Shown here: one piece after another, positions 6,570-27,471 of the stretch | Numbering within the stretch: the first letter of the stretch is position 1 | Layout of the letters: each line of letters opens with the position of its first letter | Source of the DNA: Acidimicrobiaceae bacterium | Lineage (GTDB): Bacteria; Actinomycetota; Acidimicrobiia; Acidimicrobiales; Ilumatobacteraceae | Length of the DNA stretch: 32,157 nucleotides | Direction of reading: 5' to 3' | Assembly: GCA_947488385.1 (NCBI GenBank) | Contig: CANKZL010000002.1 | Location: 1 to 32,157, forward strand | Made by a program: the position numbers and the translations under genes | The notes under the pieces: generated by a model | What the model was told of the DNA's origin: nothing | Database searches by the model: none | Seen by the model: only the letters and a program-made list of their open reading frames with translations

Positions 6570-8900
6570 TTATTGAGTGCTGAGGCTCGCACGAAATTCA
6601 CCCTCACGCATCTTTTCTAAAACTTCTTTGGGCGGCTCGTCAAGTCGTTCAAGTGTCACACTTTCGATTTGTGCGGTGCATTCAAAGTTGTGGCGATATG
6701 GTCCGACGGGTGAACCAGTGTCTACTCCGACATCAAATGTTTCACCGCTCATTGAAAACACGAGCGGAACCGTCTTGGTGATTTGACCGCGGCTCACTTC
6801 AGACCCGTTGACCGAAAGCGAGACAGTTCCGCCAGCGCCAAAGCCGCCGTCGTAAGCGAACAAAACTTCAATGCTTTGATGCCCCGATTTAAGAGGCGTA
6901 TCGCTCTTAAATGAAAAATGTTCATGACCGAACAGGTTGTAGTGGAACACGGGCTTCGTATGTTCGTCTAAGTAAAGCGACCAACCAGCCATGTTTCCGC
7001 CTTGGCACGCAATGACCCCCGAATCGCTCTTATTCGTGATTTTGATTTCAGCATTAATGCGATACGAACAATTTTTTAAATTGATCACCGAGCTTTCTGG
7101 CATTCGGGTGTGCGCAGACGTGTATTTGATTTTGTTGAAGCCATCTAGTGAGTGGGGCACGGCAAAGTCTCCGTTGCGCGGCGAGCCCGGGTCACGAAGC
7201 GGGTAAATGCCGAACTCTTTGGCGTGACGCTCAAAGAGGTCTTGTAACTCTTTTAGTTTCTTGGGTTCAGACTTGGCGAGATCAACGGCCTGCGAGAAGT
7301 CTTCGGCGACGTTGTACAGCTCCCAAACTTCTTGCGGTCCGTCAAATTCGAAACCCTGCAGTCGAATCCATGGCAGGCGACCGTGAAAGCAAGACGCAAT
7401 CCAGCCTTCGTGATACATCGCTCGGTTACCCAAGATCTCGAAATATTGCGTCTTGTGGGTGCTTGGTGATGAAGCACTTGCAAACGAATAAGTCATTGAA
7501 GTTCCGTGAATCGGCATTTGTTTGATGCCGTTGACAAACTCGGGGGCTTGAATACCGGCTGCTTCGTAAATTGTTGGTGCTATGTCTATGACGTGATGAA
7601 ACTGTGTTCGCAATTCGCCTGCAGCCGTGATCTTCTTCGGCCAAGAAATAGCAATTGCATTTCGGGTGCCACCAAAGTGTGAGGCGACTTGCTTCATCCA
7701 TTGAAATGGAGAGTCAAGCGCCCATGCCCAGCCGACGTTGAAGTGGTTCTCGCATCGAGCAGTGCCGAAATCATCGATGTGATCAAGCAGCCACTCAGGG
7801 TCTTCGGGTACGCCGTTTTGAAATGAAGGAGCACTCCATGCACCGTGAATTGTGCCTTCAGCGCTAGCTCCGTTGTCACCAGTTATATAAACGACCAAAG
7901 TATTTTCGGCAATATTTAAATCATCAAGGGCATTGATTACTCGAGCGATCTGAGCATCGGTGTGCGCGAGAAAACCAGCGAAGGTCTCCATTAAGCGTTG
8001 GGCGACTGGCCGATAGCGCTCGGGATATTCATCCCACGCTGGTATTTGTTCGGGTCGTTTGGTTAATGCTGTGCCTTGCGGAATCACACCAAGTTTTAGT
8101 TGGCGTTCGTAAATTTCGTTGCGCAGGCTGTCCCAGCCGCTATCAAACTTGCCTTTGTACTTTTCAATCCATTCGCGTGGCACATGGTGTGGTGCGTGCA
8201 CTGCGGGTGTTGAAAAGTAACAAAAAAATGGTTTGTCCGGTGATGACGCTTTCTGACGCTGCATCCAACTGATGGTTTGATCTGCCAAGTCTTCTGTCAG
8301 GTGATAGTCGGGTTTGCCGATGTGTGGAGCGATCGGAGTTGTCTGATCGTAAACAGGCGGTTCATATTGCGATGACTCCGCGCCCATAATTCCGTAGAAG
8401 CGATCGAATCCCATTCCTGTTGGCCAACGATCAAATGGCCCCGCCGGACTTTGCTCCCATGACGGGGTCAAGTGCCATTTTCCGAAACACGCTGTGCTGT
8501 AGCCCGACATGCGCAGCACTTGAGCAATCGTTGCTGACTCTGGCGGAATCGCACTGTCGTAGCCAGGAAATGAATTTGCAATTTCGGTTATGCCGCCCAT
8601 GTGCACAGTGTGATGATTGCGGCCAGTGAGAAGCGCTGCTCGAGTCGGCGAGCAGAGAGCGGTGGTGTGAAATTGGTTGTAGCGCAGACCGTTCTTGGCA
8701 ATTTTGTTTAGTCCGGGGGTGTCGACTGGGCCACCAAAGTTTCCGAACGAGCCAAACCCGACATCGTCGAGCATGATCAACAAAACGTTTGGCGCGCCTT
8801 TTGGTGCTTGCGGTGCCGTGAGTTTTCTCGGGGTGGACTGGGAGATCGTTTTAGAGATGCTTCCTGAAAACTCAGGTGTCGCGTTCGGCAGTTTTGTCAC
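6570..8900 (-). CDS. Type I (formylglycine-dependent) sulfatase, large arylsulfatase-like
   Basis: 776 residues. The alkaline-phosphatase-like sulfatase fold is clear: VLLIMLDDVGFGSFGN holds metal ligands Asp45 and Asp46, and CSPTRAALLTGR holds Cys83, the residue converted to formylglycine (C-x-P-x-R), and Arg87. GKWHLTP and YITGDNGAS supply further active-site residues. After about residue 600 comes a beta-rich extension of the kind found in long arylsulfatases. No signal peptide is visible, so it should be cytoplasmic. It is much longer than choline sulfatase (about 500 residues) and lacks an obvious BetC signature. It starts four bases inside the preceding gene of the NuoEF-FdhA operon. 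The substrate is unknown; an alkyl or aryl sulfate ester is likely. The maturation enzyme (FGE) is not in the window. Confidence 0.9.
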   Translation of the reverse strand: MTKLPNATPEFSGSISKTISQSTPRKLTAPQAPKGAPNVLLIMLDDVGFGSFGNFGGPVDTPGLNKIAKNGLRYNQFHTTALCSPTRAALLTGRNHHTVHMGGITEIANSFPGYDSAIPPESATIAQVLRMSGYSTACFGKWHLTPSWEQSPAGPFDRWPTGMGFDRFYGIMGAESSQYEPPVYDQTTPIAPHIGKPDYHLTEDLADQTISWMQRQKASSPDKPFFCYFSTPAVHAPHHVPREWIEKYKGKFDSGWDSLRNEIYERQLKLGVIPQGTALTKRPEQIPAWDEYPERYRPVAQRLMETFAGFLAHTDAQIARVINALDDLNIAENTLVVYITGDNGASAEGTIHGAWSAPSFQNGVPEDPEWLLDHIDDFGTARCENHFNVGWAWALDSPFQWMKQVASHFGGTRNAIAISWPKKITAAGELRTQFHHVIDIAPTIYEAAGIQAPEFVNGIKQMPIHGTSMTYSFASASSPSTHKTQYFEILGNRAMYHEGWIASCFHGRLPWIRLQGFEFDGPQEVWELYNVAEDFSQAVDLAKSEPKKLKELQDLFERHAKEFGIYPLRDPGSPRNGDFAVPHSLDGFNKIKYTSAHTRMPESSVINLKNCSYRINAEIKITNKSDSGVIACQGGNMAGWSLYLDEHTKPVFHYNLFGHEHFSFKSDTPLKSGHQSIEVLFAYDGGFGAGGTVSLSVNGSEVSRGQITKTVPLVFSMSGETFDVGVDTGSPVGPYRHNFECTAQIESVTLERLDEPPKEVLEKMREGEFRASLSTQ

Positions 8901-10615
8901 GACTGCAAATTATCAATGTCAAAGACTTGGAGTGCTTCAAGAGCCTGGTATTTATCACCGGTGACAGTTAGTGCATTCGTATTAACTGCAACAGAAAGTT
9001 TGAGATCGCCCGAAATAATGTCGGCCCAAATTTCTGGAGTGCAATTGATTGCAATCTCGGCTCCTACACCGTTCGTCGGCACAGCAACACAATTTCTGAT
9101 GTGTAAACCCACCTTTTTATGGCCAGTGAAATTAAACGCAATGTGGGTTTGAATTCGCGTTGCGCGCTCGGGAACCAGCAGCACTCGCAGTGCACTTAAA
9201 GAGTTGCCAGCAGGTGATGCGATGACTTGTTTCTTTGAAACTCGATGACGATTAAACCGTGTGAGGTCAAACGTCTCGTCCAGGTGGCGGGCGCGGGCCA
9301 AACACCAGTTGCGAATGTTTGCTGCGGTGGTTCGCTGGGCAATCAAACGAAGCACGCTCGATAAAAGGAGTTTGTCAGAATTTTCGACATCAGTGCTGTT
9401 GACCAGCCATGAGCCAAGTTCGCATGCCCAGCGAAGATCGTCATGTTCAATCGCATCGCGCGTCTGCTGGCGAACCTTCTCGCGGCCGCCGAAGCCCGCG
9501 ATCATTCGATCTGAGTGTTCAATTCGTGGTAGAGGAAATAAGTTTGCTTCGTCCCCGTCAAACCACCCGAGTAGTCCGCTGCGGATTTGGCGCACATGGT
9601 GTTCGGCGACGCCGTAAAACTCAGAAGTTAGGTTGTCGTCGTCATAAAAATCTGGCAGACGAATCGAGTGGGCCAGTTCAACGCTTGTATAGCCACGATT
9701 GGTGAGTCGCACTGTTTGATCCCACAAAAATTGAATTGAGTCGCGGTACTTTGTGACCCGTTCAAAAATTTCTTGCTCACCACTAATTGGCATGCCGTGC
9801 GCGCCGACTAGATGCTTTGCTGACAGTGATAGCAAATGATCGATACCAGTCAAGAGAATTTGTGGGTCGCGGTATTCTTCGCCACGAATAGCAAAAATGT
9901 TGAAGAGCACTGGCCAGACGAGATTGTTTACCGCACAGCCAAGTGATCTAAACCAATAAGTGACCGAGTCATCAGCGTCTGATGGGGCTGGCATCACATC
10001 GATTTCAAGGCCCGCAACTTTTATTGTGCATGCACCATTAAAAGTTTCAGTAGGTGCGATGAAGCCGTTGGTTTGAGTCCTGTGTTCAGGGTTGCGATAG
10101 AAACGACCAAGACCCACGTTGACGTTTCCGTCTTTGCCTTCTGCCGGCAGGGTGATGGCGAATTGCTCTACAAGTCCGCGACTATATGCAGGGGCGATTT
10201 CGGTTGCGGTGCGAACGCGGTTGTACGCGATCTTTTCGTGACCGTAAATCTTTATTTCTTGATCTGGAAATGCGTCAAGCGCAGCCTGGGTTCCCGCAAC
10301 GTAATGAAAATGTGTATACAGCACAGCCACAATTGGTTTTGTAGTTTGCTGTCGTAACTCTGCCATCGCGGCCAGCATTTCTTCGTTTGACTCGCCAGTG
10401 TCAATGGCGATGATTCCGTCTGGGGCGTCAATAAAAGTTTGGTTAGAAAGCCCATTGCCAACCAAGCACCAAACTTTTTCTCCAACTTGATAGAAATTTC
10501 TTTTTAAGCGGCTTGAGTGACCAACTAAATCGCGGTGGGCAACGAAGCCTTCGCTGGTAGTTACAGTATTTTCGGCAGATTTTTCAAAGCTTCGACCACG
10601 CTTTGCTTTTGTCAT
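8897..10615 (-). CDS. Alkylsulfatase-like metallo-beta-lactamase-fold protein with altered metal site
   Basis: 572 residues from the ATG at 10615, which overlaps the previous stop as ATGA. The order of domains matches linear alkylsulfatases of the SdsA1/BDS1 type: an N-terminal MBL domain (IAIDTGES, then LYTHFHYVAGT), a dimerisation region with FNIFAIRGEEYRDP, LLGWFDGDEANLFPLPR, and an SCP2-like C-terminus with QTHIAFNFTGHKKVGLHIRN. The canonical HxHxDH zinc motif is incomplete. His102 and His104 remain, but Val106 and Ala107 stand where Asp and His are expected, and the Glu of the usual AEN segment appears to be Asn. It may bind one metal differently, use another chemistry, or be non-catalytic. 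It lies between the 2OG oxygenase and the sulfatase in a tightly overlapping operon. Homology is good; alkylsulfatase activity is doubtful. Confidence 0.75.
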   Translation of the reverse strand: MTKAKRGRSFEKSAENTVTTSEGFVAHRDLVGHSSRLKRNFYQVGEKVWCLVGNGLSNQTFIDAPDGIIAIDTGESNEEMLAAMAELRQQTTKPIVAVLYTHFHYVAGTQAALDAFPDQEIKIYGHEKIAYNRVRTATEIAPAYSRGLVEQFAITLPAEGKDGNVNVGLGRFYRNPEHRTQTNGFIAPTETFNGACTIKVAGLEIDVMPAPSDADDSVTYWFRSLGCAVNNLVWPVLFNIFAIRGEEYRDPQILLTGIDHLLSLSAKHLVGAHGMPISGEQEIFERVTKYRDSIQFLWDQTVRLTNRGYTSVELAHSIRLPDFYDDDNLTSEFYGVAEHHVRQIRSGLLGWFDGDEANLFPLPRIEHSDRMIAGFGGREKVRQQTRDAIEHDDLRWACELGSWLVNSTDVENSDKLLLSSVLRLIAQRTTAANIRNWCLARARHLDETFDLTRFNRHRVSKKQVIASPAGNSLSALRVLLVPERATRIQTHIAFNFTGHKKVGLHIRNCVAVPTNGVGAEIAINCTPEIWADIISGDLKLSVAVNTNALTVTGDKYQALEALQVFDIDNLQS

Positions 10616-11607
10616 GACGCGTTGAATTCGCCAAGAACCTGAGCAGGGTCTGTTGAGACTGTGTCTGGCCAATTCGAATACCAAATATCGGCGGCCGATG
10701 TACCCACATGCAACGGCAGGCGGTCAAAACCTTCAATTGGTTTCACTAATGGTTGAATCACAACATCAAAACGGGGTTTTGAAAAAAATGGAAAAGACTG
10801 TCGGGGTTTGCCAGAACTATTGAAAACACGATGTGGTGTCGAGATCAGGCGACCGCCACTCCAAAGTTCGAGCATGTCTCCAACATTAAGCACCATTGCG
10901 TCTGGTGGACAATCGGCGGTGATCCACTCTTCATTGCGATTGCGAACTTCAAGCCCACCAACAGGGTCGTGAGCCAACAGTGTCATCAAGTTGAAGTCTT
11001 TATGCGGATGGATGCCCCATTGGTCGCTTTGGGGTGGCATGGGTGGGTAGTTGAGCAGCGTCATATTTGTGAGTGGGTTTGTCATGCATGAAAGTATTTG
11101 ATTCGGGTCAACATCGAGTTGCGTGCACAGTGCAACAATCAAATTCTCGCAAACACCTGTTAGCGCCTTCCAGTAACGCATGACTGGTGTTTGAATGTCA
11201 TGGTTGATGCGAGGCCATTTGTTGGGGCCATATAAATGACTCGCCTCACAAATCGGGTCATTCGAGTCAGTTTCGTTGTGCAGTTTCCAGGCTTCATATT
11301 GGTCGGCTTTGCCTTGACCTGAGTTTGGTGTGAAATAACCCAACGGCACAAACCCGCGATAGTTGCCTTTGACGACCATATCTTGCAGCAACACTTCTCG
11401 CGATGTTGAAAAGACTGTCGCAACCGCATCGCGCATCTCAGCAATGATCTCTGCGTCGACACCGTGATTGATAATCACAGCAAAGCCAATCTCGCCGAGT
11501 GCCGAATAAAGTTCTTGCGCCGATTTCAGGTAGTCGGTTGTATTTGTATTTTTGCTTCGTAGCGAAGCGATGTCGACAATCGGTAGACGTTTACCGAGCG
11601 AGTTCAT
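10612..11607 (-). CDS. 2-oxoglutarate/Fe(II) oxygenase, isopenicillin-N-synthase-like
   Basis: 331 residues, normal for this superfamily. The N-terminal DIOX_N-like part has LPIVDIASLRS and ALGEIGFAVIINHGVD. The jelly-roll core holds the iron facial triad in WGIHPHKDFNLMTLL (His and Asp of H-x-D), a distal His in STPHRVFNSSG, and the 2OG-binding Arg in RQSFPFF. All ligands are intact, so an active hydroxylase or oxidative demethylase/desulfatase is expected. Its ATG overlaps the stop of the FdhA N-terminal gene by one base (TAATG), and its own stop overlaps the next start (ATGA), so translation is coupled to both. The substrate is unknown. A role in cleaving a methylated or sulfated compound to an aldehyde, with the carbon ending at formate dehydrogenase, is a guess from context. 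Confidence 0.87.
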   Translation of the reverse strand: MNSLGKRLPIVDIASLRSKNTNTTDYLKSAQELYSALGEIGFAVIINHGVDAEIIAEMRDAVATVFSTSREVLLQDMVVKGNYRGFVPLGYFTPNSGQGKADQYEAWKLHNETDSNDPICEASHLYGPNKWPRINHDIQTPVMRYWKALTGVCENLIVALCTQLDVDPNQILSCMTNPLTNMTLLNYPPMPPQSDQWGIHPHKDFNLMTLLAHDPVGGLEVRNRNEEWITADCPPDAMVLNVGDMLELWSGGRLISTPHRVFNSSGKPRQSFPFFSKPRFDVVIQPLVKPIEGFDRLPLHVGTSAADIWYSNWPDTVSTDPAQVLGEFNAS

Positions 11608-12545
11608 TAGTCAATTTTATTATTTTGAACGTGCTGAAAACCAAATCGCCCCTTGATGCACAAATTGCCGTGGGTCACCGAGTGATCGCTAGGTGAGCTG
11701 ACTTTGACGATTGTGTTGTCTTGCACATGCAAGGTGAGCGCGCAACCCACGCCACAGTAAGGGCAGATTGTGTCTGTCTGTGTTTGTTCTTCTTCGTGCC
11801 ATGTGCCCGCTTCGCGCATTTCGTATTCGGTCGTAAACATCAATGCGCCAGTTGGGCAAACTTGAATGCAGTTTCCGCAATATACACAGGCTGAATCGGT
11901 GAGATCAACTGCAAATTCGGTTGAGATTCGAGCATCAAAGCCGCGACCAGCAGTCGTAATTGCAAATGTGTTCTGCCACTGTTCGCCACAGGCATCAACG
12001 CACTGATAACACAAAATGCACTTCGAATAATCGCGAATGTAGAGCGAGTTGTCGATCTTTACTGGTTGATGAACCGACTCGGCAGTCTTTCCATCAGGTG
12101 CATGATGATGACCAGTTACGGCTTCGTCGCGATCGCTGTGATGAAAAGATGGCGAGCCAAAACGCATTGGTTCTGCTCCGTAACTTTCGTTCCACCTGGC
12201 GACATTTTTTGTAAGCGAGAGATCAACTGAAGATCCGAGAAGTTCTAGCACGAGTTTGCGGCTGAGGCGGGTGCGATCGTTGTCGGTATTAACGACCATT
12301 CCGGGTTCGACTTTGCGCGAGCAACTCGGCACGAGGGTTCGAGATCCCTCAAGTTCAACCATGCACACGCGACATGCATTTTTAGGCGTGATTGTGTCGC
12401 CGTAGCAAAGAGTGGGGATGTCCTTACCTGACGCGCGACACGCATCTAGAAGTGTCGAGCCTTCGGGGGCAGTTATTTTCTTGCCATCAATTGTGAGTTC
12501 GACGCTCTTGCGAACTTGCAGACCAGAAGTGACTTGTGTGCTCAT
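11607..12545 (-). CDS. Split formate dehydrogenase alpha subunit, N-terminal Fe-S part
   Basis: 312 residues holding everything that normally precedes the catalytic core of NAD-linked FdhA/FdsA. A [2Fe-2S] ferredoxin domain has Cys47, 58, 61 and 75 (NACRVCMVE). A His-rich linker (residues 135-148) follows. Two [4Fe-4S] sites use Cys176, 179, 182, 186 and Cys220, 223, 226, 230. The first molybdopterin-family cluster is CPYCGVGC (Cys261, 264, 268) plus Cys296 in GNLCIKGRFGF. The protein then ends at a natural stop where full-length homologues continue with the RLTxP segment, and that segment opens the separate gene at 16404-18338. It starts by ATGA overlap with the NuoE-NuoF gene. Either the two polypeptides assemble into one alpha subunit, or this is a free electron-transfer module. 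The end is not ragged, which argues against simple decay. Confidence 0.88.
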   Translation of the reverse strand: MSTQVTSGLQVRKSVELTIDGKKITAPEGSTLLDACRASGKDIPTLCYGDTITPKNACRVCMVELEGSRTLVPSCSRKVEPGMVVNTDNDRTRLSRKLVLELLGSSVDLSLTKNVARWNESYGAEPMRFGSPSFHHSDRDEAVTGHHHAPDGKTAESVHQPVKIDNSLYIRDYSKCILCYQCVDACGEQWQNTFAITTAGRGFDARISTEFAVDLTDSACVYCGNCIQVCPTGALMFTTEYEMREAGTWHEEEQTQTDTICPYCGVGCALTLHVQDNTIVKVSSPSDHSVTHGNLCIKGRFGFQHVQNNKID

Positions 12546-14383
12546 GCCGAAAATACCTTAAGCCGAGTAAGGGCAGAGTCGATGGCATTGTGGGCCGTTT
12601 GACCCAAACCACAGATGCTTGCGTCGCGCATTACTTGACCCAGATCGCGTAACAGTTGCAGATCGACTGAAGCACTCGCTGTACCAGATGATTTAACAAG
12701 ACGGGCGAGCGCTTCTTGTTGGCGAACGGTGCCAACGCGACAAGGCACGCATTGTCCGCATGATTCGTCTCTGAAGAACGCGGCAATTCTTTGCAACTGG
12801 TCAACCATGTCGACAGTTTGATCTAGGACCATGATGACGCCTGAGCCAAGTGTCGTGCCGGCGGCCCTGGCAGCCTCAATGGTTAATTCAAGATCAAGGT
12901 CTTCGGGGCCAACGAAACCACCGGCGGCACCACCAAGAAGAATTGCCTGAATTGATGAACCTGTTTTAAGACCGCCCGCAAGTTCGATTAACTGACGCAA
13001 AGTTGCCCCGAATGTAACTTCGTAGACACCTGGCGTCTTGACCGCACCTGAAACGCAGAAAAGTTTTTTGCCTTTCGAGCCAGTTGAGCCCCACGAGGCA
13101 TATTTTTCGCCCGTGCTCTGAATAATCGGCAAAACGTTGAGAAGTGTTTCGACGTTATTGACAACAGTCGGCTTACCGAAGAGTCCGACTTCAACTGGAA
13201 ACGGCGGCTTGTTGCGCGGTTCACCACGGAAGCCTTCAATTGAATTAAAGATTGCGGTTTCTTCGCCACAAATGTAAGCGCCTGCACCTTTGAACATTGT
13301 GATTTCAAAGTTGAAACCTGAATTCAAAATATTGTCGCCGAGATAATTCTTTTTGCGGGCGATGCTGAGCGCGTTTTCTAGGTGTCGCATTGCGCGTGGG
13401 TACTCGCCGCGCAAGTAGATGTAACCGTGTTGACAACCTGTTGCAAATGCAGCGATCGTCATTGACTCGACCAACGCAAATGGGTCGCCTTCGAGCATGA
13501 CCCGATCTTTGAAAGTGCCAGGCTCTGACTCGTCGGCATTACAAATTAGATAACGAGTCTTTACGGGCTGACTTGCAACTGCGGCCCATTTTCTTCCGGT
13601 TGGAAATGCGGCGCCGCCTCGACCGACCAAGCCAGATGCCGTGACTTCATTAATTACTTTTTCTGGACCAATTTCAAATGCCCGGCGCAATGCAGTGAAG
13701 CCATTGTGCTTGATGTAGTCGTCAATGCTCAGCGGGTCGGCAATTCCGACTCGTGTCAGAAGCACCAGCGAACTGTCGGGTGTTTGCGGAGCGCCAGCAT
13801 TCACTGGCTGTTCGATGCCCGCTGACTTTCCTCCAACAAGTTCGACAATGTCATTGCGAGTTGCAGGTGCAAGAACTTCGAAACGAGGCGACACACCTGC
13901 CTCGATTAAAAGCACTGCCGGGGCACGTTCGCACGTGCCAAGACAAGGTGAAGCAACTGACCCTTCGGGCAGGTTTTCTTCGGTGCACCCGGCCATTGCA
14001 CGACACGCCAAGTCAACACAAACGTGAACTTGTCGAGCTGGTCTTTCGTTGGTGTCGAACAACGCATAAAATGTAGCAACGCCATAAATTTCGGCGGGGG
14101 CGACGTCAAGTCGTTGTGAGATGTAATTGATTGCGCCCCGACTGATGAATCCGACTCGATCGTTTACCGCGTGCAGTATCGGCAAAAGCAGATGGCGTAG
14201 TTCGCGCAACGACTCGCCACCGTGTGAAACACGCAGCCCAACTGCATCGCGCTCGGCGCCTTGCGATGTTTCAGGGGCGGGGCCGAGAAGCGAGTCGACT
14301 GCATCGCGTTCTTCGGTGGTGGCTTTCCCAGAGGAAATTTTGAGATCCATTGCGTCTTTGACTTTACGACTAAAAGTAGCCAT
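12542..14383 (-). CDS. Formate dehydrogenase beta subunit, NuoE-NuoF fusion (NADH:ferredoxin diaphorase)
   Basis: 613 residues, slightly longer than the roughly 570-residue Fdh1B of methylotrophs, which has the same fusion. Residues about 60-170 are NuoE-like thioredoxin-fold with [2Fe-2S] cysteines in VCVDLACRAMAGC and SPCLGTCERAPA. Residues about 200-600 are NuoF-like: GLVGRGGAAFPTGRKW (FMN/NADH site), CNADESEPGTFKDR, GAYICGEETA, and ESCGQCVPCRVGT with a further Cys for the [4Fe-4S] cluster. It transfers electrons from formate oxidation to NAD+. It is the first gene of the overlapping minus-strand operon. The ATG at 14383 has no clear Shine-Dalgarno sequence; an internal ATG at 14350 is an alternative. 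No separate gamma (FdsG) gene is needed because NuoE is fused. Confidence 0.92.
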   Translation of the reverse strand: MATFSRKVKDAMDLKISSGKATTEERDAVDSLLGPAPETSQGAERDAVGLRVSHGGESLRELRHLLLPILHAVNDRVGFISRGAINYISQRLDVAPAEIYGVATFYALFDTNERPARQVHVCVDLACRAMAGCTEENLPEGSVASPCLGTCERAPAVLLIEAGVSPRFEVLAPATRNDIVELVGGKSAGIEQPVNAGAPQTPDSSLVLLTRVGIADPLSIDDYIKHNGFTALRRAFEIGPEKVINEVTASGLVGRGGAAFPTGRKWAAVASQPVKTRYLICNADESEPGTFKDRVMLEGDPFALVESMTIAAFATGCQHGYIYLRGEYPRAMRHLENALSIARKKNYLGDNILNSGFNFEITMFKGAGAYICGEETAIFNSIEGFRGEPRNKPPFPVEVGLFGKPTVVNNVETLLNVLPIIQSTGEKYASWGSTGSKGKKLFCVSGAVKTPGVYEVTFGATLRQLIELAGGLKTGSSIQAILLGGAAGGFVGPEDLDLELTIEAARAAGTTLGSGVIMVLDQTVDMVDQLQRIAAFFRDESCGQCVPCRVGTVRQQEALARLVKSSGTASASVDLQLLRDLGQVMRDASICGLGQTAHNAIDSALTRLKVFSA

Positions 14384-14456: not shown

Positions 14457-15317
14457 GTGAACGATCTGACGGATTACACGGATTACACCGAATATCTAGA
14501 CACTTCGCGGTATCCGATCGCCGAATCGAGCCAGAAGCGTGACGAGATTGTCACAAGTGCACAGAGTTCAATTATGGCCGACGGCTGCGTTGTGCTTAAA
14601 GGCTTTATTAGAGCTGACAAAATCGCCGATTTGGTCGCCGAGTGCGACCGCGTCGAAAAGTTTGGACATCGCAACTTCACTCGCACGAACCCTTACTTCA
14701 CGGCCGATCGAGAAGATCTGCCGACTAGTCATCCACTGCGAAGGTTTTTTGATCGCTCAAATGCCTTTGTGCCTGCCGACAACTTTGGTGCTGACAGCAT
14801 CCTGCGAAAAATATTTGACTGGCCGGCTTTTTCTCGGTTCATCAAAGAAGTTTTGCAAGAAGATAAATTTTTTCCATACGCTGACCCGCTTGCCGATGTG
14901 ACCGTAAATCTCGCAGAAGAAGGCAACGGATTTCCGTGGCATTTCGATACGAATAATTTCACGGTGACACTGGCGATTCAAAATGCAGAGTCGGGTGGCG
15001 AGTTTGAGTACAGCCCTATGGTGCGGTCGTTAACCGAAGAGAATTATGAAAAAGTTGAACGGGTTTTGGACGGTGACAAAGATCTGATTAAAACACTTCT
15101 ACTTGAGCCAGGTGACTTACAAATTTTCAAAGGTCGCTATTCGCTTCATCGCGTTGCGCCACTGCGTGGACCGCGCAAAAGATATGTCGCGATTTTCAGT
15201 TATGTCTCGGAGCCTGGAATGGTCAGTAGTCCGCAACGCGCGAAAGAACTTTACGGTCGTGTTTTGCCGATTCACATTGAGCATGCGGGTATGCGCACTG
15301 ACGAGTTGATTGATTAG
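14457..15317 (+). CDS. 2-oxoglutarate/Fe(II) oxygenase (PhyH/ArpA-like)
   Basis: 286 residues from a GTG at 14457. The iron ligands are visible: PWHFDTNNF gives His and Asp of the H-x-D motif near residues 160-163, YSLHRVAPL gives the distal His, and an Arg-rich RGPRKRYVAIFSY follows as the 2OG-binding strand. The Asp is retained, so it is a hydroxylase type and not a halogenase type, where this residue is Gly or Ala. The N-terminus contains a repeated DYTDYTEY run caused by a short tandem DNA repeat. It is transcribed with the MDR oxidoreductase 15 bases downstream and against its neighbours, lying between the two halves of the split formate dehydrogenase. It is not similar enough to the IPNS-like oxygenase at 10612-11607 to be a recent duplicate. 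The substrate is unknown. Confidence 0.82.
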   Translation: MNDLTDYTDYTEYLDTSRYPIAESSQKRDEIVTSAQSSIMADGCVVLKGFIRADKIADLVAECDRVEKFGHRNFTRTNPYFTADREDLPTSHPLRRFFDRSNAFVPADNFGADSILRKIFDWPAFSRFIKEVLQEDKFFPYADPLADVTVNLAEEGNGFPWHFDTNNFTVTLAIQNAESGGEFEYSPMVRSLTEENYEKVERVLDGDKDLIKTLLLEPGDLQIFKGRYSLHRVAPLRGPRKRYVAIFSYVSEPGMVSSPQRAKELYGRVLPIHIEHAGMRTDELID

Positions 15318-15332
15318 TCGTAACATCTGCAA

Positions 15333-16400
15333 ATGAAAGCAATCGTCACAACCGGCAATGGCGGCTACGACAAACTCGAATATCGTGATGTGCCGTTGCC
15401 TGAAGTTGCAAGCGGCGAAGTTCTGTTGCAAGTCCTGGCAGCGGGTGTAAACAACACTGAGATCAACACTCGATTGGGTTGGTATTCGTCGTCGGTCAGT
15501 TCGGGTACCAATGAAATTGCGAGCGATGCTCGACAGCGTGATTTGCCGAAATCAGATGGTGGGTGGAGCGAGCCGACGCCTTTTCCTTTTATTCAGGGCA
15601 CAGATTGTTGTGGTCGTATTGTTGGTGTTGCGTCAGATGTTGATCAGAATCTGATTGGTGCCCGAGTTTTGGTCAGGCCGTGCATGCGCCCCGACGGGTT
15701 TAGTTCGATGCGAAACATCTGGATGGGCTCGGACTTTGACGGTTCGTTTGCGCAGTATGTAAAAGTTCCGGCATCAGAAGTTTTTGTGGTGCAATCGCAG
15801 TGGAGCGATGTGGAGTTAGGTTCGATTCCGTGCAGCTACGGCTCTGCAGAAAATATGTTGCACCGAGCAAAAGTTGTCTCTGGCGAACACGTTTTAATCG
15901 CTGGCGCTTCAGGCGGAGTCGGTTCGGCAGCCGTGCAGTTAGCAAAGTTGCGTGGGGCAAAAGTAACAGCGATTGTTGGCGGCAACAAAACACAGCAAGT
16001 TCTTGAACTTGGTGCTGACCGAGCAATCGAACGTGGAAAGAACTTAGTTAGCGAACTTGGGGATGAAGCGGTTGATGTTGTGATCGACAACGTTGGCGGT
16101 AAAGATTTTGCATCGTCGCTTCAGGTGCTGCGTCGCGGTGGGCGGTATGCGTCATCGGGGGCTATTGGTGGACCGATTGTCGAATTAGATTTACGAACTT
16201 TTTATTTGAAAGACTTAACTCTGATTGGTTGTACTGCGTGGGACGAGCCAGTATTTCCGAACCTGATTTCGTATATTGAAAAAAGCCAGATCAGGCCAGT
16301 TGTGGCGAAAACTTTTGCTCTGAAAGATATTGCACGAGCACAAGCCGAGTTTTTAGAGAAAAAGCATTTTGGCAAGTTTGTTTTAGTGCCTGAGCACTAA
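15333..16400 (+). CDS. MDR-family NAD(P)H oxidoreductase (quinone-oxidoreductase-like)
   Basis: 355 residues, medium-chain dehydrogenase/reductase fold. The N-terminal GroES-like domain reads YRDVPLPEVASGEVLLQV, then AAGVNNTEINTRLGWY and IQGTDCCGRIVG. The Rossmann domain starts at IAGASGGVGSAAVQLAKL with VDVVIDNVGG further on. The catalytic Cys/His zinc pattern of alcohol dehydrogenases is not obvious, so a zinc-free quinone or enal reductase type is more likely, although a zinc-type enzyme cannot be excluded. It follows the 2OG oxygenase by 15 bases and probably acts on its product or a related carbonyl. It converges on the catalytic formate dehydrogenase gene with only three bases between stops. 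Confidence 0.83.
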   Translation: MKAIVTTGNGGYDKLEYRDVPLPEVASGEVLLQVLAAGVNNTEINTRLGWYSSSVSSGTNEIASDARQRDLPKSDGGWSEPTPFPFIQGTDCCGRIVGVASDVDQNLIGARVLVRPCMRPDGFSSMRNIWMGSDFDGSFAQYVKVPASEVFVVQSQWSDVELGSIPCSYGSAENMLHRAKVVSGEHVLIAGASGGVGSAAVQLAKLRGAKVTAIVGGNKTQQVLELGADRAIERGKNLVSELGDEAVDVVIDNVGGKDFASSLQVLRRGGRYASSGAIGGPIVELDLRTFYLKDLTLIGCTAWDEPVFPNLISYIEKSQIRPVVAKTFALKDIARAQAEFLEKKHFGKFVLVPEH

Positions 16401-16403
16401 CTT

Positions 16404-18338
16404 TTATTCGCCGGCGACCGGTACTCGCTCGTTGATTCGATCAATACGAACAGCCGCTGCTTTAAACTCGGCAGTGCCTGACTTCGGGTCGGTTGCGTCA
16501 ATTGTGATCAAGTTTGTATTGACCTGATCAGGAAAGTGCATCGTCATGAACACAAGACCGGGACGCAAGTTTTTGTCGATGCGCACTGGCACTTCAAGCG
16601 AGCCGCGCAACGAGCTGACCCGCACGACTTCGCTATCGCGAACTGCAAGATTTGCTGCGTCTTCTGGAGAGACATCGATGGTTTCACCAAAGCGAAGCGG
16701 GCTATCAAAGCCACGAGTTTGAACGCCCGTGTTATACGAGTCAAGTCTGCGACCAGTTGTCAAGCGCAACGGAAACTCAGGTGATGTTGCTTCAACTGGT
16801 GGTTCGTCGACCACGACACTGAATGGGGCCAGGCGACCTCGCTTTGCCGGATCTTTGTCCCACAAGCGACCGTGCAAGAACGACGGCTCAAGAGTGTCTT
16901 CACTGAAGCATGGCCACTGAATGCCACCAAGTTCTGCCAAACGTTTGTACGACATGCCGGCGTGCATTGGCGAAAGGCTACGAAGTTCGTCCCAAATCTG
17001 TTCAGAAGATTCATATTTCCAGTCGTGACCCATCTCGCGGGCAAGGTCAAGAATAATTTGAATGTCGTCGCGAGCGTTTCCGGGCGAGTTGATTGCTTTT
17101 CGAACGCGTTGCACGCGGCGCTCAGAGTTGGTGACTGTGCCGTCACTCTCGCACCACGAAGCCGAACCAGGGAATACAACATCGGCGAGCTGCGCTGTTT
17201 TGGTCAAGAAAAGATCTTGCACGACGAGGAAATCGAGGTTCTCGAGTAGGTGAGTGGCGTGCGCACCGTCAGCTTCAGATTGCGCAGGGTTTTCGCCGAT
17301 TACAAAAACTGCGCGAAGTTCTTTGCGCTCCATTGCTTCGAACATTTGGGTCAAGTTCCAGCCATTTGTTGGTGGGATAACACAATTCCATTTTTGATTA
17401 AATTTTTTGCGGGCAACATCGTCTTCGACGTCTTGGAAACCAGGCAACTTGTTTGGCAGCGCTCCCATGTCGCCACCACCTTGCACATTGTTTTGACCAC
17501 GAAGCGGGCTGAGACCAGCACCTGGTCGACCAACATGACCGCAAAGGAGTGCCAAATTGATCAGCGAGAGAACGTTGTCAACTCCGTTGTGATGTTCAGT
17601 AATGCCGAGAGTCCAGCAGAGTTGTGCACTTCCGGCTTTGGCAAAAGCGTGGGCTAGTTCGCGAATCGACTCGGCGGGCACACCAGTAACTTGGCTGCCA
17701 ACTTCAAGAGTCCAGGGTTCGACTGAGTTTGCATATTCGGCGAAGTTTGTCGTACTGCCTTCGATGAACTCTCTATGCGCGAGACCCGCGTGAATGATTT
17801 CGCGGGCGATCGTATTTGAAAGAGCGATGTCGGTGCCGACATTCAAGCCAAGCCACATATCCGAGAACTGTGCAGATGCAGTGCGACGAGGGTCGACAAC
17901 AAAAAGTTTTGCGCCGTTACGAACGCCCTGCAAGACGTGATGAAAATAAATCGGGTGGGCTTCGCGGGCGTTAGAGCCCCAAAGAACAACTACTTCTGCA
18001 GTTTCAACTTCGGCGTATGAACTTGTTCCTCCGCCTGCTCCAAAAACGGTGGCCAGACCGACCACCGAAGGTGCGTGTCAAGTTCGATTACATGAATCGA
18101 TGTTGTTTGTGCCGATTACGGCGCGAGCAAATTTTTGAGCGATGAAGTTCATCTCGTTGGTTGACTTCGAGCAGGAGAAAAAGCCGACTGCCGACGGTGA
18201 GAAAGCGTCTCTCGTCGTAGCCAATCCTTTGGCAGCTTTCGAGAGGGCTTCTTGCCAAGTGGCAACACGTAAAACGCCGTTTTCGCGAACCATCGGTTCG
18301 GTCAACCTCATGTAAGGGTCAAATTTGTGTTTTGCCAT
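16404..18338 (-). CDS. Split formate dehydrogenase alpha subunit, catalytic part, selenocysteine-containing
   Basis: 644 residues when the in-frame TGA at 18080-18078 is read as selenocysteine, which becomes residue 87. It opens MAKHKFDPYMRLTEPMVREN, the segment that follows the CIKGRFG block in full-length enzymes, and has no Fe-S motif of its own. The TGA context is NNIDSCNRT-U-HAPSVVGLA, matching the active-site position that is Sec in E. coli FdhF and Cys in many NAD-linked enzymes. Bis-MGD domains follow: VLWGSNAREAHPIYFHH, VDPRRT, LRGQNNVQGGGDMGALPN and VIGENPAQSEADG. The MopB C-terminal barrel begins at RLTTGRRLDSYNTGVQTRG. The reaction is formate to CO2 with electrons to the clusters and NAD+. 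It is transcribed from its own 5' region, divergent from fhs, about 4 kb from its N-terminal partner. FdhD and the Sec machinery are not in the window. Confidence 0.92.
18047..18067 (-). promoter_or_regulatory. Putative bacterial SECIS hairpin
   Basis: On the minus strand, the arm CGGTGGTC pairs with GGCCACCG over eight base pairs (one G-U wobble) around the five-base loop GGTCT. The GG starting the core stem lies 11 bases after the TGA. From memory, E. coli fdhF has the same 11-base distance and also exposes GGUC in its apical loop, where SelB contacts G and U. The stem is coding, so protein constraint contributes to the resemblance. Function needs SelB and tRNA-Sec encoded elsewhere. Confidence 0.8.
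18078..18080 (-). other. In-frame UGA selenocysteine codon
   Basis: The TGA lies in one uninterrupted frame, 86 codons after the ATG at 18338 and 557 codons before the TAA ending at 16404. Flanking residues (CNRT before, HAPS after) align with the Sec-containing active-site loop of formate dehydrogenases. Both sides encode conserved FdhA sequence, so a true stop would destroy the catalytic residue itself. Confidence 0.88.
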
Positions 18339-18431
18339 GACATTTTTACTTTAGCGACTTCAGGTGGCAGAAAGTGATCTGTAGAGTAGGTGGTCGCATC
18401 AATTGAACGAAAAATAAGAGAAAAGGTAAAA
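18339..18431. promoter_or_regulatory. Divergent promoter region between catalytic FdhA and fhs
   Basis: A 93-base gap separates the two start codons. A TAGAGT at 18382-18387 fits a TANNNT -10 box for the plus strand, 44 bases before the fhs ATG, without a convincing -35. A purine-rich AGAGAAAAGG near 18417-18426 is the fhs ribosome-binding site. No strong palindrome was seen. Confidence 0.35.
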
Positions 18432-20129
18432 ATGAGCTTTCCATCAGATCTTGAAATCGCCCGCAAGGCAACAGCCAAACCGCTTACAGAAATTGCAGCG
18501 CAAATGGGTATTGGCAGCGAGTTTCTCGAACCGTATGGCAAAAGTCTCGCCAAGATTTCGTTGGATGCGATCGATTCGTTGAAGAGTCGCCCGAAGGCTA
18601 AATATGTAGTAGTCACGGCGATTACGCCGACACCGCTGGGCGAAGGAAAGACAACTACAACAGTCGGTCTGGGGCAAGCCATGAAGCACATTGGCAAAAA
18701 AGCCACGATCAGTTTGCGTCAACCGAGCATGGGTCCAACTTTCGGAATTAAAGGTGGTGCTGCTGGTGGTGGCTACAGCCAAGTGATTCCAATGGAGTTG
18801 TTGAACTTGCACTTAACGGGTGACTTTCATGCTGTGACTGCCGCACACAACTTGCTCTCGGCAATGGTCGACAACCATTTGCACCAAGGAAACGATCTCG
18901 ATTTAGACATCAACAACATCACTTGGCGTCGTGTGATGGACGTCAATGATCGTTCGATGCGAAACTTGATCATCGGTCTCGGAACAAAAGAAGACGGAGT
19001 GGTTCGTCAGACTGGTTTTGATATCACTGCAGCATCAGAAGTCATGGCGATTCTCGCGCTTGCAACTTCGAAAGAAGACATGCGTGCACGCTTCGCTCGA
19101 ATCGTCGTCGGTTATGACTCGCAAGGAAAGCCAGTGACAGCAGAGCAACTTAGTGGTGCTGGCTCGATGGCTGTGATCATGGGTGAAGCAATCAAGCCAA
19201 ACTTGTTACAGACGATTGAAAATACTCCGGTGATTGTGCACGCCGGCCCGTTTGGCAATATTGCGCACGGCAACTCTTCGATCGTGGGTGACTTGATTGG
19301 TATTCACTCGGGTGACTATTTGATTACCGAGGCAGGTTTCGGTGCCGACATGGGCGCTGAAAAATTCTTCAACATCAAATGTCGTGCTTCAGGTCTCGTG
19401 CCTGATGCCGCGGTGCTCGTTGCTACCGTGCGCGCGTTGAAAGCTCACTCGGGTAAATACAAGATCGTCGCTGGCAAAGCTCTGCCAGAAGATCTTTTGA
19501 AAGAGAACCCAGCAGATGTAATTGCAGGTGCGGCGAACTTGATGAAGCAAATTGAAAACGTCAAGGCGCACGGTGTTTCGCCAGTTGTGGCAATCAACAG
19601 CTTTCCAACTGACCATAAATCAGAGCATGATGCGATTCGCAAGATCGCCGAAGAAGCGGGCGCCCGAGTTGCGGTTTGCACTCACTTCGCCGATGGTGGT
19701 GCAGGAGCCAAAGATTTGGCCAATGCAGTAGTCGAAGCTTGCAATGACAAGAACACATTTCACTTCTTGTACCCAGACGAAGCGTCGCTCAAAGAAAAAA
19801 TCGAGAAGATTGCGACAACTATCTACGGTGCGGCGAAGGTCGAATACACCAGTCTTGCCAACAAGCAAATCAAGACTTATACCGATAACGGTTTTGCCAA
19901 GTTGCCGATTTGTGTCGCCAAGACACATCTTTCAATTTCTGGAGATGCGTCTCTTCGCGGAGCCCCAACGGGTCACACGTTGAACGTGCGTGAAGTACGA
20001 GCCTCAATTGGTGCCGGATTTGTTTATCCGATTTGTGGCGACATGCGAACGATGCCAGGACTCGGCACAAAGCCTGCTGCAGCGATTATTGACTTCGATG
20101 CGAACGGTGAAATTGTCGGACTTTCATGA
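18432..20129 (+). CDS. fhs: Formate-tetrahydrofolate ligase
   Basis: 565 residues from the ATG at 18432, chosen for its upstream AGAGAAAAGG and because the product then begins MSFPSDLEIARKA; a GTG 42 bases earlier is out of register with the family. The ATP site TPTPLGEGKTTTTVG is at residues 65-79, followed by QPSMGPTFGIKGGAAGGGYS. Other conserved blocks are AGFGADMGAEKF, VVAINSFPTDH and PGLGTKPAA. It interconverts formate plus THF and 10-formyl-THF with ATP. In a catabolic setting it would run toward formate and regain ATP, feeding the formate dehydrogenase encoded divergently next door. It overlaps folD by four bases (ATGA) and leads the long plus-strand C1 gene train. Confidence 0.97.
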   Translation: MSFPSDLEIARKATAKPLTEIAAQMGIGSEFLEPYGKSLAKISLDAIDSLKSRPKAKYVVVTAITPTPLGEGKTTTTVGLGQAMKHIGKKATISLRQPSMGPTFGIKGGAAGGGYSQVIPMELLNLHLTGDFHAVTAAHNLLSAMVDNHLHQGNDLDLDINNITWRRVMDVNDRSMRNLIIGLGTKEDGVVRQTGFDITAASEVMAILALATSKEDMRARFARIVVGYDSQGKPVTAEQLSGAGSMAVIMGEAIKPNLLQTIENTPVIVHAGPFGNIAHGNSSIVGDLIGIHSGDYLITEAGFGADMGAEKFFNIKCRASGLVPDAAVLVATVRALKAHSGKYKIVAGKALPEDLLKENPADVIAGAANLMKQIENVKAHGVSPVVAINSFPTDHKSEHDAIRKIAEEAGARVAVCTHFADGGAGAKDLANAVVEACNDKNTFHFLYPDEASLKEKIEKIATTIYGAAKVEYTSLANKQIKTYTDNGFAKLPICVAKTHLSISGDASLRGAPTGHTLNVREVRASIGAGFVYPICGDMRTMPGLGTKPAAAIIDFDANGEIVGLS

Positions 20130-21004
20130 GTTCAGAAGTTAAGCGCACAGCTGGTGGCGCATTGCTGCTCGACGGCATGCAGTTGCGAGATGAGACGGTT
20201 GCCAAAATAAAAGCGACGATTACTGCGGCCGGCAACCCAAAAATCTGCTTGGCAACCGTGTTGATTGGCGACGATCCACCTAGTCATATATATGTCGCGA
20301 ATAAACACAAAAAAGCTCAAGAGGCCGGCATGGTGTCAAAGGGTCTGCAACTGCCTGCTGATGCAACTCAGGCCCAAGTTGAGAAGGCAGTCAGCGAGTT
20401 GGTTGCCGACAAAAGCGTGCACGGAATCTTGGTGCAGTTGCCATTGCCTAAGCACATCAACACTGAAGCAGTTCTGGCATTGCTGCCAGTCGAAAAAGAC
20501 GTTGACGGTTTAACTGAACGCTCGTTGGGTCGTCTCGTTCGAGATTTGCCGGGCCATGTGCCATGCACGCCACTTGGGGTTGTTCGAATTCTTCAGCGAT
20601 ACAACATCGAAACAGTCGGTAAGCGAGTTGTAGTAATCGGCCGCTCGGCTTTAGTCGGGTTGCCTCAAATGTTGTTGCTGGTAAGACGAGGAGCCGACGC
20701 CACCGTGACGGTTGCACACAAATCGACCAAAGACATGATCGAAGTTTGTCGCGAGGCCGACATCATTATCGCTGCTGCTGGTGCTGCACGTATGGTGACG
20801 GCTGCTCATGTCAAACCAGGGGCGACCGTGATTGATGTCGGCGTGACTCGCATCAACAACAAGATCGTTGGCGATGTTGATTTTGATGCGGTTCAAGCAA
20901 TCGCTGGCGCGATCACGCCGATGCCCGGCGGCACCGGTCCGATGACGATTGCTTGTTTGCTCGAAAACACGCTTGAGGCTGCTCGCATGCAGGGAGCGAT
21001 TTGA
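20126..21004 (+). CDS. folD: Methylene-THF dehydrogenase / methenyl-THF cyclohydrolase
   Basis: 292 residues, standard for bifunctional FolD. The catalytic segment [17 protein letters not shown] holds the Tyr and Lys of the YxxxK motif. [13 protein letters not shown] and [11 protein letters not shown] are the conserved substrate-site blocks, [14 protein letters not shown] begins the NADP-binding half, and [17 protein letters not shown] closes it. It oxidises 5,10-methylene-THF to 10-formyl-THF via methenyl-THF, linking the dimethylglycine-dehydrogenase and MetF products to Fhs. The start overlaps the fhs stop (ATGA). The familiar GRSxxVGxP motif reads GRSALVGLP. Confidence 0.97.
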
Positions 21005-25430: not shown

Positions 25431-27449
25431 ATGGAGCGGCGCGTTGTCTTTACCCCGTCGGGGTTGGACGGCGTCGTGCCTGACGGCGTAACTGTTCTCG
25501 ATGCTGCTCGTCAATTGGGTGTCGACATTGATTCTGTTTGTGGTGGTCGCGGAATATGCGGTCGCTGTCAGATCACTCCTTCAAATGGAGTCTTTGCAAA
25601 GTGGGGGATAACTGCAACCGAGACTTCGCTGTCTGGGTTGGCAGAAACTGAAACTAACTATCGGGCTAAGCGTGCATTGGTCCCAGGTAATCGACTTGGG
25701 TGTGCGGCGCGAATTTGTGGCGATGTTGTAATTGACATTCCAGCGATTAGTCAGGTGCATCGTCAAATCGTGCGAAAAGATTTAGATCTAGATCCGATAA
25801 TCGTCGACCCGAGTTTCAGCTTGTTTTATTTGACCATCCCTGAAGCGCAACTTGGTGATTCGGTGAGCGCTGCCGATGCTTTATCTAACGCAGTTGCAGC
25901 ACAACATAAGCGCAAAGCACCTGAAGTTGCTAGACGGGCCTTGAATACGTTGCACTCGGCGATGGCAAAAGCCGAAGGCGAAGTGACGGTTGCAGTTCGA
26001 CACACTGACGGCGCAGATCAAATCGTTGCTGCTTGGCCAGGTTTCGTTGATGCTGCATACGGAATTGCAGTTGACGTGGGCTCGACAACAGTTGCTGGAC
26101 ACCTTTGCGAATTATTGACCGGAGAAATTGTCGGCAGCTACGGATTGATGAACCCACAAATTCGATTCGGCGAAGACCTGATGAGTCGCGTTTCGTTTGT
26201 AATGATGAACCCGGGTGGCGAAGTTGAGTTGACAAATGCAATTCGAGCAGCACTTAACGACTTGATTGCCAACTTGGTGAAAAATGCTGGCATTACTAAG
26301 TCGAATGTCCTCGAAATCACGATCGTCGGTAACCCGATTATGCACCACATAGTTTTAGGAATTGACCCAACGCCGTTGGGTATGGCCCCGTTCGTTTTGG
26401 CAACAAACGAATCAGTGAGCGGGTGGGCAAACGAACTTGATTTAGATTTGCCCAACGCCGCGTATTACGTCGGTCCGTGCATCGCTGGCCACGTGGGTGC
26501 TGATACTGCGGCCGCAATTTTGGCCGAAGGTCCGCATCGCTCGAAAGAAATGCAATTGCTCGTCGATATCGGCACAAACGCTGAAATTGTTTTAGGAAAT
26601 ACGAGTCATCAATTTGCTGCATCAAGCCCTACGGGTCCTGCATTTGAAGGCGCTCAGATCAGTGCCGGACAAAGAGCCACAGCGGGAGCTATCGAGCACG
26701 TACGAATTGATCGAACGACACTTGAGCCTCGCGTGAAAGTGATCGGTTCAGAATTATGGAGCAACGAGCCAGGTTTTATTGAGTCACTCGGCGACACTGT
26801 TGTAACCGGAGTTTGTGGTTCAGGCATTATTGAAGTAATCGCCGAAATGTATTTGAGCGGAATTATCGATACCGATGGCGTCGTGCGAGGTGAACTGACT
26901 TCGAAGTCAAGCCGAATTGTTAGCGATGAGAGAACCTTCTCATATTTGTTTTATGAACATGGCGATACCAAGTTGTACGTAACACAAAACGACGTTCGTG
27001 CGATTCAGTTGGCAAAGGCCGCGTTGCGCGCAGGTATTGATCTTCTCGTTGAGCACGCGGGCAACCCAGTTGTGCACGACATTCGTCTTGCGGGCGCTTT
27101 CGGTGCGCACATTGATCCGGTTTATGCGATGGTTCTCGGGCTTGTGCCGGATTGTCCGGTTGCAGGTGTTCGTGCAGTCGGAAATGCTGCAGGCGCCGGA
27201 GCCGTGCAGTCGCTTTTGTCGCGTAAGTTGCGTCAAGAAATGGAAGACACGGTGCGCAAAGTTACAAAAATTGAAACTGCAACTGAGCCAAGATTTCAAC
27301 AATTGTTTGTCGAAGCAATGGCGTTTCCGCATAAGACGGCTCTGGCGCCGAACTTGGCAAAGGTGATTGACCTGCCTGCGCGAGACGTATCTTCTGCCGA
27401 CGGTCAAGGTCGAGGCCCGTCTCGGTCGGGTCGCCGTCGCAGACCTTAG
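25431..27449 (+). CDS. Reductive activator of corrinoid proteins (RACE/RamA-like, DUF4445)
   Basis: 672 residues. Residues 1-105 are a [2Fe-2S] ferredoxin domain with Cys37, 43 and 46 (SVCGGRGICGRC) and Cys91 (GNRLGCAARI). A linker follows, then an ASKHA ATPase domain from about residue 205, with YGIAVDVGSTTVAGHL, VGNPIMHHIVLGI, HVGADTAAAIL, LLVDIGTNAEIVLG and the late LAGAFGAHIDP. Family members use ATP to reduce accidentally oxidised Co(II) back to Co(I), which matters most in oxygen-exposed cells. It starts nine bases after the methyl-THF:corrinoid methyltransferase and precedes the MttB gene. The final residues (SRSGRRRRP) form another basic tail. It lacks the C-terminal two-[4Fe-4S] arrangement of archaeal RamA, as expected for the bacterial type. 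Confidence 0.93.
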   Translation: MERRVVFTPSGLDGVVPDGVTVLDAARQLGVDIDSVCGGRGICGRCQITPSNGVFAKWGITATETSLSGLAETETNYRAKRALVPGNRLGCAARICGDVVIDIPAISQVHRQIVRKDLDLDPIIVDPSFSLFYLTIPEAQLGDSVSAADALSNAVAAQHKRKAPEVARRALNTLHSAMAKAEGEVTVAVRHTDGADQIVAAWPGFVDAAYGIAVDVGSTTVAGHLCELLTGEIVGSYGLMNPQIRFGEDLMSRVSFVMMNPGGEVELTNAIRAALNDLIANLVKNAGITKSNVLEITIVGNPIMHHIVLGIDPTPLGMAPFVLATNESVSGWANELDLDLPNAAYYVGPCIAGHVGADTAAAILAEGPHRSKEMQLLVDIGTNAEIVLGNTSHQFAASSPTGPAFEGAQISAGQRATAGAIEHVRIDRTTLEPRVKVIGSELWSNEPGFIESLGDTVVTGVCGSGIIEVIAEMYLSGIIDTDGVVRGELTSKSSRIVSDERTFSYLFYEHGDTKLYVTQNDVRAIQLAKAALRAGIDLLVEHAGNPVVHDIRLAGAFGAHIDPVYAMVLGLVPDCPVAGVRAVGNAAGAGAVQSLLSRKLRQEMEDTVRKVTKIETATEPRFQQLFVEAMAFPHKTALAPNLAKVIDLPARDVSSADGQGRGPSRSGRRRRP

Positions 27450-27471
27450 GTCGGCGTGGCAGAATAGAAAC

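Follow-up and report, generated by a model that had tools for sequence, protein, structure and literature searches.

The closest described counterpart of the formate dehydrogenase (FDH) encoded at this locus is FdsABG, the NAD+-dependent Mo enzyme of R. capsulatus (PDB 6tga), in which a NuoE/NuoF diaphorase is combined with an iron-sulfur-rich N-terminal part and a bis-MGD part, the latter two being fused in a single A subunit with cysteine as the catalytic residue. The selenoprotein FDHs of the FdhA/FdhF type carry an active-site UGA and a SECIS element with a GGUCU loop, and among the selenoprotein families of bacteria FdhA is the most common (PMC1794560). For the other proteins of the locus, the described relatives are the alkylsulfatases SdsA1, Pisa1 and YjcS and the type I sulfatases of the P. 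aeruginosa arylsulfatase type. The alkylsulfatase AtsK, also a 2OG/Fe(II) oxygenase, belongs to the TauD family. The window (the whole stretch of 32,157 nucleotides that was analysed) comes from a metagenome-assembled genome (MAG) of 1.06 Mb and 69% completeness, and its named relatives are Ilumatobacteraceae/acIV-type MAGs, mostly from lakes as judged by isolate names. The genus is represented throughout by incomplete MAGs, and the locus counts given below were read by hand from neighbourhood tables.

The first-pass annotation had named five genes at 6570-14383; all five lie on the minus strand, and ORFs and domain matches agreed with the identities claimed. A NuoE-NuoF fusion, the diaphorase subunit of the FDH (12542..14383; PF01257, PF01512, PF10531 and PF10589), is followed by FdhN, the stand-alone iron-sulfur part of FdhA (11607..12545), a 2OG/Fe(II) oxygenase of the DIOX_N/2OG-FeII_Oxy (IPNS/EFE-like) type (10612..11607; PF14226 and PF03171), an MBL-fold protein with alkylsulfatase architecture and a reduced metal motif (8897..10615; PF00753 and PF14863) and a type I sulfatase with a C-terminal lectin-like domain (6570..8900; PF00884 and weak PF13385), respectively. 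The overlaps of 4, 1, 4 and 4 bases were reproduced from the ORF ends and starts (NuoEF/FdhN, 12542-12545; FdhN/oxygenase, 11607; oxygenase/MBL, 10612-10615; MBL/sulfatase, 8897-8900), with the MBL start taken as the ATG at 10615, whereas the longest ORF begins at a TTG farther upstream. The statement that FDH subunits belong to the operon held for NuoEF and FdhN, but the catalytic subunit FdhC had been overlooked; since it is encoded outside the five-gene span (16404..18338, minus strand), the FDH of that span is incomplete.

FdhC is the catalytic Mo/W-bisMGD subunit, with 644 amino acids and one in-frame TGA. It was aligned to residues 308-933 of R. capsulatus FdsA, and its alignment to FdhF-type enzymes begins at their residue ~57-64; the selenoprotein FDHs with solved structures compared here have an Fe4S4 domain of their own, whereas FdhC has none at its N-terminus. 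FdhN contains a 2Fe-2S cluster, two 4Fe-4S clusters and the Fe4S4 domain usually fused to the catalytic subunit (Molybdop_Fe4S4), and stops at the end of this domain. Since FdhN was aligned to FdsA 24-303, the pair makes up one FdsA, split at 303/308 between the Fe4S4 and bis-MGD parts, and the whole length of FdsABG is covered. In contrast to FdsABG, FdhA is thus split after residue ~303 into two genes, the catalytic residue is selenocysteine and the gene order is fdhC-nuoEF-fdhN, an arrangement that runs without interruption in other families of the order and likewise in a second genus of Ilumatobacteraceae.

The UGA codon read as selenocysteine (SCNRT-U-HAPSVVGL) was located at 18078..18080 on the minus strand, at residue 87 of FdhC, and TGA was found at the active-site position in every relative whose position was readable. 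Directly downstream, a bacterial SECIS hairpin lies at 18049..18065 (minus strand), the 6-bp stem of which is paired in 22/22 distinct sequences and the GGUCU apical loop of which is invariant. One stem pair covaries between GC and CG (15:7 across the 22 distinct sequences), and slid controls lose the hairpin; the single-sequence fold of the 61-nt SECIS region was not significant (z -0.65). tRNA-Sec was detected over the Rfam cut-off in 15 of the 29 genus genomes, and none was above the cut-off in the 69% complete source genome. Going by these sequences, the FDH is a predicted selenoenzyme made from separately encoded pieces.

The cluster cysteines are invariant in 22 aligned split-type FdhN proteins across the order. 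The His-ligated 4Fe-4S motif HxxxCxxCxxxxxC of FdsABG was found in 0 of these 22 and is retained in two fused Cys-type FDHs (L254 and L257); because of its absence, the split enzyme is probably one 4Fe-4S cluster short in comparison with FdsABG. An extra cysteine of FdhN (11607-12545), Cys36, is invariant in the split-type proteins and is Ala in both fused ones compared. Two kinds of FDH occur in the order, a split one with selenocysteine and a fused one with open frames of about 1000 amino acids (Cys in 4/4 checked). On plasmids, the best FdhN matches listed were 34-37% identical, and several of them were annotated as FDH alpha subunits. No description of a split selenocysteine FDH or of acIV formate metabolism was found in the largely open-access literature covered, and no such FDH is described in the passages covered of an actinobacterial paper (PMC7325909).

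The neighbourhood survey that had been proposed was run, and the five-gene order is not unique to the source genome: NuoEF-FdhN-oxygenase-MBL-sulfatase recurs in the second genus and in roughly twelve loci of the genus whose contigs extend far enough. Among the 22 genus loci in which the region past FdhN was visible, the oxygenase follows FdhN in 21 and the MBL gene follows the oxygenase in 17; two are without the MBL gene and two stop at a contig edge. The junctions NuoEF>FdhN and MBL>sulfatase are -4 in nearly all loci and are the only conserved overlaps; the spacing of FdhN>oxygenase lies between -1 and +56, that of oxygenase>MBL between -4 and +42. The 4-bp overlaps show coupling only inside each module (NuoEF/FdhN and MBL/sulfatase); some loci couple all five genes by overlap. 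The dN/dS values were 0.03-0.10 for every gene (against a relative with 94-99% identity), so that every gene of the cluster is under purifying selection and, by this measure, functional. The oxygenase, MBL and sulfatase genes would lie on a common transcript with nuoEF-fdhN, yet as separable modules.

This separability was observed in relatives. L051 and L052 have FDH and oxygenase genes without MBL or sulfatase, and no MBL gene was found anywhere in their genomes (G004 and G016, 90-91% complete). In L050, FDH, MBL and sulfatase are present and the oxygenase is absent. In L196 and L198, the oxygenase-MBL-sulfatase trio stands beside the formate-tetrahydrofolate ligase gene (FTHFS) at the same site with no FDH genes there, and the genome of L198 (G331) has a different, fused Cys-FDH elsewhere (L257), which suggests that the split Sec-FDH was replaced by the fused type. 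Because FDH, oxygenase and MBL-sulfatase come apart in relatives, the locus consists of three modules, of which the FDH and the MBL-sulfatase pair are old and the oxygenase joined in this lineage. In view of these five loci, the argument that the overlaps bind all five genes into one pathway is not supported; where genomes are compact, overlaps of a few bases cannot on their own demonstrate a shared pathway.

MBL proteins of this kind are spread over many families of the order, in most cases with the sulfatase next and FDH absent, and most MBL loci without FDH keep the MBL>sulfatase adjacency, often with a 4-bp overlap; both statements refer to the best 80 of 379 relatives and are hence biased to close kin. 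Alphaproteobacterial MAGs carry the MBL gene without an adjoining sulfatase, and a tally of neighbour families at 33 MBL loci gave diverse families and no recurrent partner pathway. In four loci of another lineage, where no split FDH is encoded at the site (L202, L209, L217 and L222), the MBL gene adjoins MTTB-type genes of low identity, with a sulfatase in 3/4 and DAO-GcvT-type genes in 3/4. No member of the MBL family was found on viral contigs, plasmids gave only distant alkylsulfatase-type proteins, and no description of the MBL-sulfatase gene pair was found in the same literature coverage. One gain and one loss were enough to explain linkage to the oxygenase on a tree built from 76 MBL proteins; on this basis the trio was added once behind the FDH genes. 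The addition of the oxygenase and a pre-existing MBL-sulfatase pair would have taken place in the common ancestor of the two Ilumatobacteraceae genera. Since the trio was added once and is separable, the five-gene order, though real, is alone no proof of a shared pathway.

The cluster lies in a locus of C1/methyl-group oxidation. Formate-tetrahydrofolate ligase and FolD are encoded divergently from fdhC (18390..21004, plus strand; PF01268 and PF00763/PF02882, respectively) and are its neighbours in the majority of genus loci whose contigs reach far enough. The window also encodes ETF alpha and beta, a DAO-GcvT demethylase, a GMC oxidoreductase and a corrinoid protein, together with DUF1638, a pterin-binding protein, RACo and MTTB. 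Such a locus is where formate would be made, and the context fits formate disposal. The MTTB ORF (27367-29010) is without an in-frame stop; Rfam PYLIS_3, the pyrrolysine insertion element of mttB, scored over its cut-off at 28510-28609 inside this gene, and the match probably reflects sequence homology of the MTTB gene rather than pyrrolysine. Between fdhC and nuoEF, the neighbourhood comparison revealed two inserted genes on the opposite strand (14457..16400, plus strand), one for a HalD-family 2OG oxygenase and one for a zinc-type dehydrogenase; the insertion is present in most genus loci and absent from L038, L050 and the second genus. The HalD-family enzyme (14457-15317; PF23169) carries HFD and not the halogenase triad HxG/HxA, and is therefore probably a hydroxylase.

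The oxygenase of the five-gene order has 9ovh and 6jyv as its nearest solved structures. It matched only PF14226/PF03171 and showed no TauD-family fold, which bears out the earlier remark that it is not of the AtsK subfamily. It might act as an oxidative demethylase that feeds formaldehyde or formate to the FDH, with only the MBL-sulfatase pair unrelated: the oxygenase stays with FdhN in nearly all visible genus loci, including the two without MBL-sulfatase. However, relatives of the oxygenase with 39-48% identity occur elsewhere in the order with no FDH genes adjoining, and the oxygenase itself is kept without FDH in L196 and L198, so this role is considered unlikely.

A single pathway, in which a sulfated methylated compound (e.g. 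choline sulfate) is desulfated by MBL/sulfatase and oxidised by the oxygenase, with the methyl carbon passing to formate and the FDH, is regarded as less probable again. The order kept in two genera and the low dN/dS could still reflect one pathway, and the five genes might together serve such a route in view of the C1 genes all around, the nearby GMC oxidoreductase and MTTB/DAO-GcvT genes, and the MBL-sulfatase genes close to low-identity MTTB-/DAO-GcvT-type genes in the other lineage mentioned above. Against this, the modules separate in relatives, most MBL-sulfatase pairs are without C1 neighbours or a constant partner family, and the sulfatase scored only 51 bits on the choline-sulfatase model (cut-off 433). 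No sequence evidence names the sulfated C1 or methylated substrate proposed in the first-pass annotation.

The AlphaFold model of the MBL protein (pLDDT 89) matched YjcS, SdsA1 and Pisa1 by Foldseek at 20-24% identity, with which it shares the MBL fold, the dimerisation domain (Alkyl_sulf_dimr) and a similar overall structure. In contrast to these alkylsulfatases, the dizinc motif THxHxDH is reduced to THxH and other residues of the ligand region are changed; THFHYxxGT is kept in 29 sequences, and the protein has invariant residues of its own. Because half of HxHxDH is missing, an alkylsulfatase activity is doubtful, and its chemistry should, from these residues, differ from that of the alkylsulfatases. 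Since it is conserved and under selection, it is not a decaying pseudogene.

The sulfatase resembles the P. aeruginosa arylsulfatase type in its CxPxR site (CSPTR here) and the surrounding active-site motifs, all intact in 23/23 sequences, but differs in its extra lectin-like domain and in its maturation background: the maturases FGE (PF03781) and anSME (TIGR03942) were each found in 0/29 genus genomes with positive controls. FGE was likewise not found in five other carriers of 98-99% completeness (G032, G037, G040, G061 and G113), and further carriers possess it. As no maturase was found, the sulfatase activity is a prediction; an unmodified Cys sulfatase is capable of slow turnover (PMC6189696). 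The genus genomes gave 1-5 sulfatase-family matches each, a second sulfatase of ~770 amino acids likewise having CSPTR, and CSPTR-type sulfatases (6570-8900; L262 and L263) occur in the genus without detected FGE or anSME. No signal peptide was evident by eye at the N-terminus of the sulfatase or of the MBL protein. Most likely, the pair would act in the cytosol (the location being judged by eye only) and release sulfate from a small ester taken up by the cell; catalysis would fall to the sulfatase, and the MBL protein would be its partner with altered chemistry. That the pair works without FGE or anSME, with the altered MBL protein activating the sulfatase or supplying the missing chemistry, is highly doubtful; if true, the pair could represent the third way of maturing sulfatases that Benjdia et al. 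(as cited in PMC6189696) put forward for prokaryotes. For the question of how sulfatases become active independently of FGE, enzymes that lack a known maturase are relevant.

The whole account, a C1/methyl-group oxidation island with a split Sec-FDH behind which the trio was added once as separable modules, is held to be fairly probable. The demethylase and the corrinoid methyltransferase system would supply methyl groups that pass through FolD/FTHFS to formate, formate would be oxidised by FdhC (selenocysteine, bis-MGD), and the electrons would flow to FdhN, a separate protein with the proximal Fe4S4 and the other clusters, then to NuoEF and NAD+. That NuoEF-FdhN is instead an orphan NADH-driven, HoxFU-like reductase serving the oxygenase or another enzyme and not FdhC is very improbable, although FdhN is HoxU-sized and two opposite-strand genes part it from fdhC in this lineage, since the other families and the second genus keep the three FDH genes side by side, the Fe4S4 domain that FdhC lacks is present in FdhN, and 2OG oxygenases of this class (DIOX_N/2OG-FeII_Oxy) are not known to require a reductase partner. 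If the split holds biochemically, the proximal 4Fe-4S cluster of this bis-MGD FDH would be carried by a second polypeptide, and its chain, one cluster short of that of FdsABG, would offer a naturally occurring way to learn which clusters are required for electron transfer. The locus suggests that lake actinobacteria, organisms known here from MAGs alone, oxidise formate in a selenium-dependent way.
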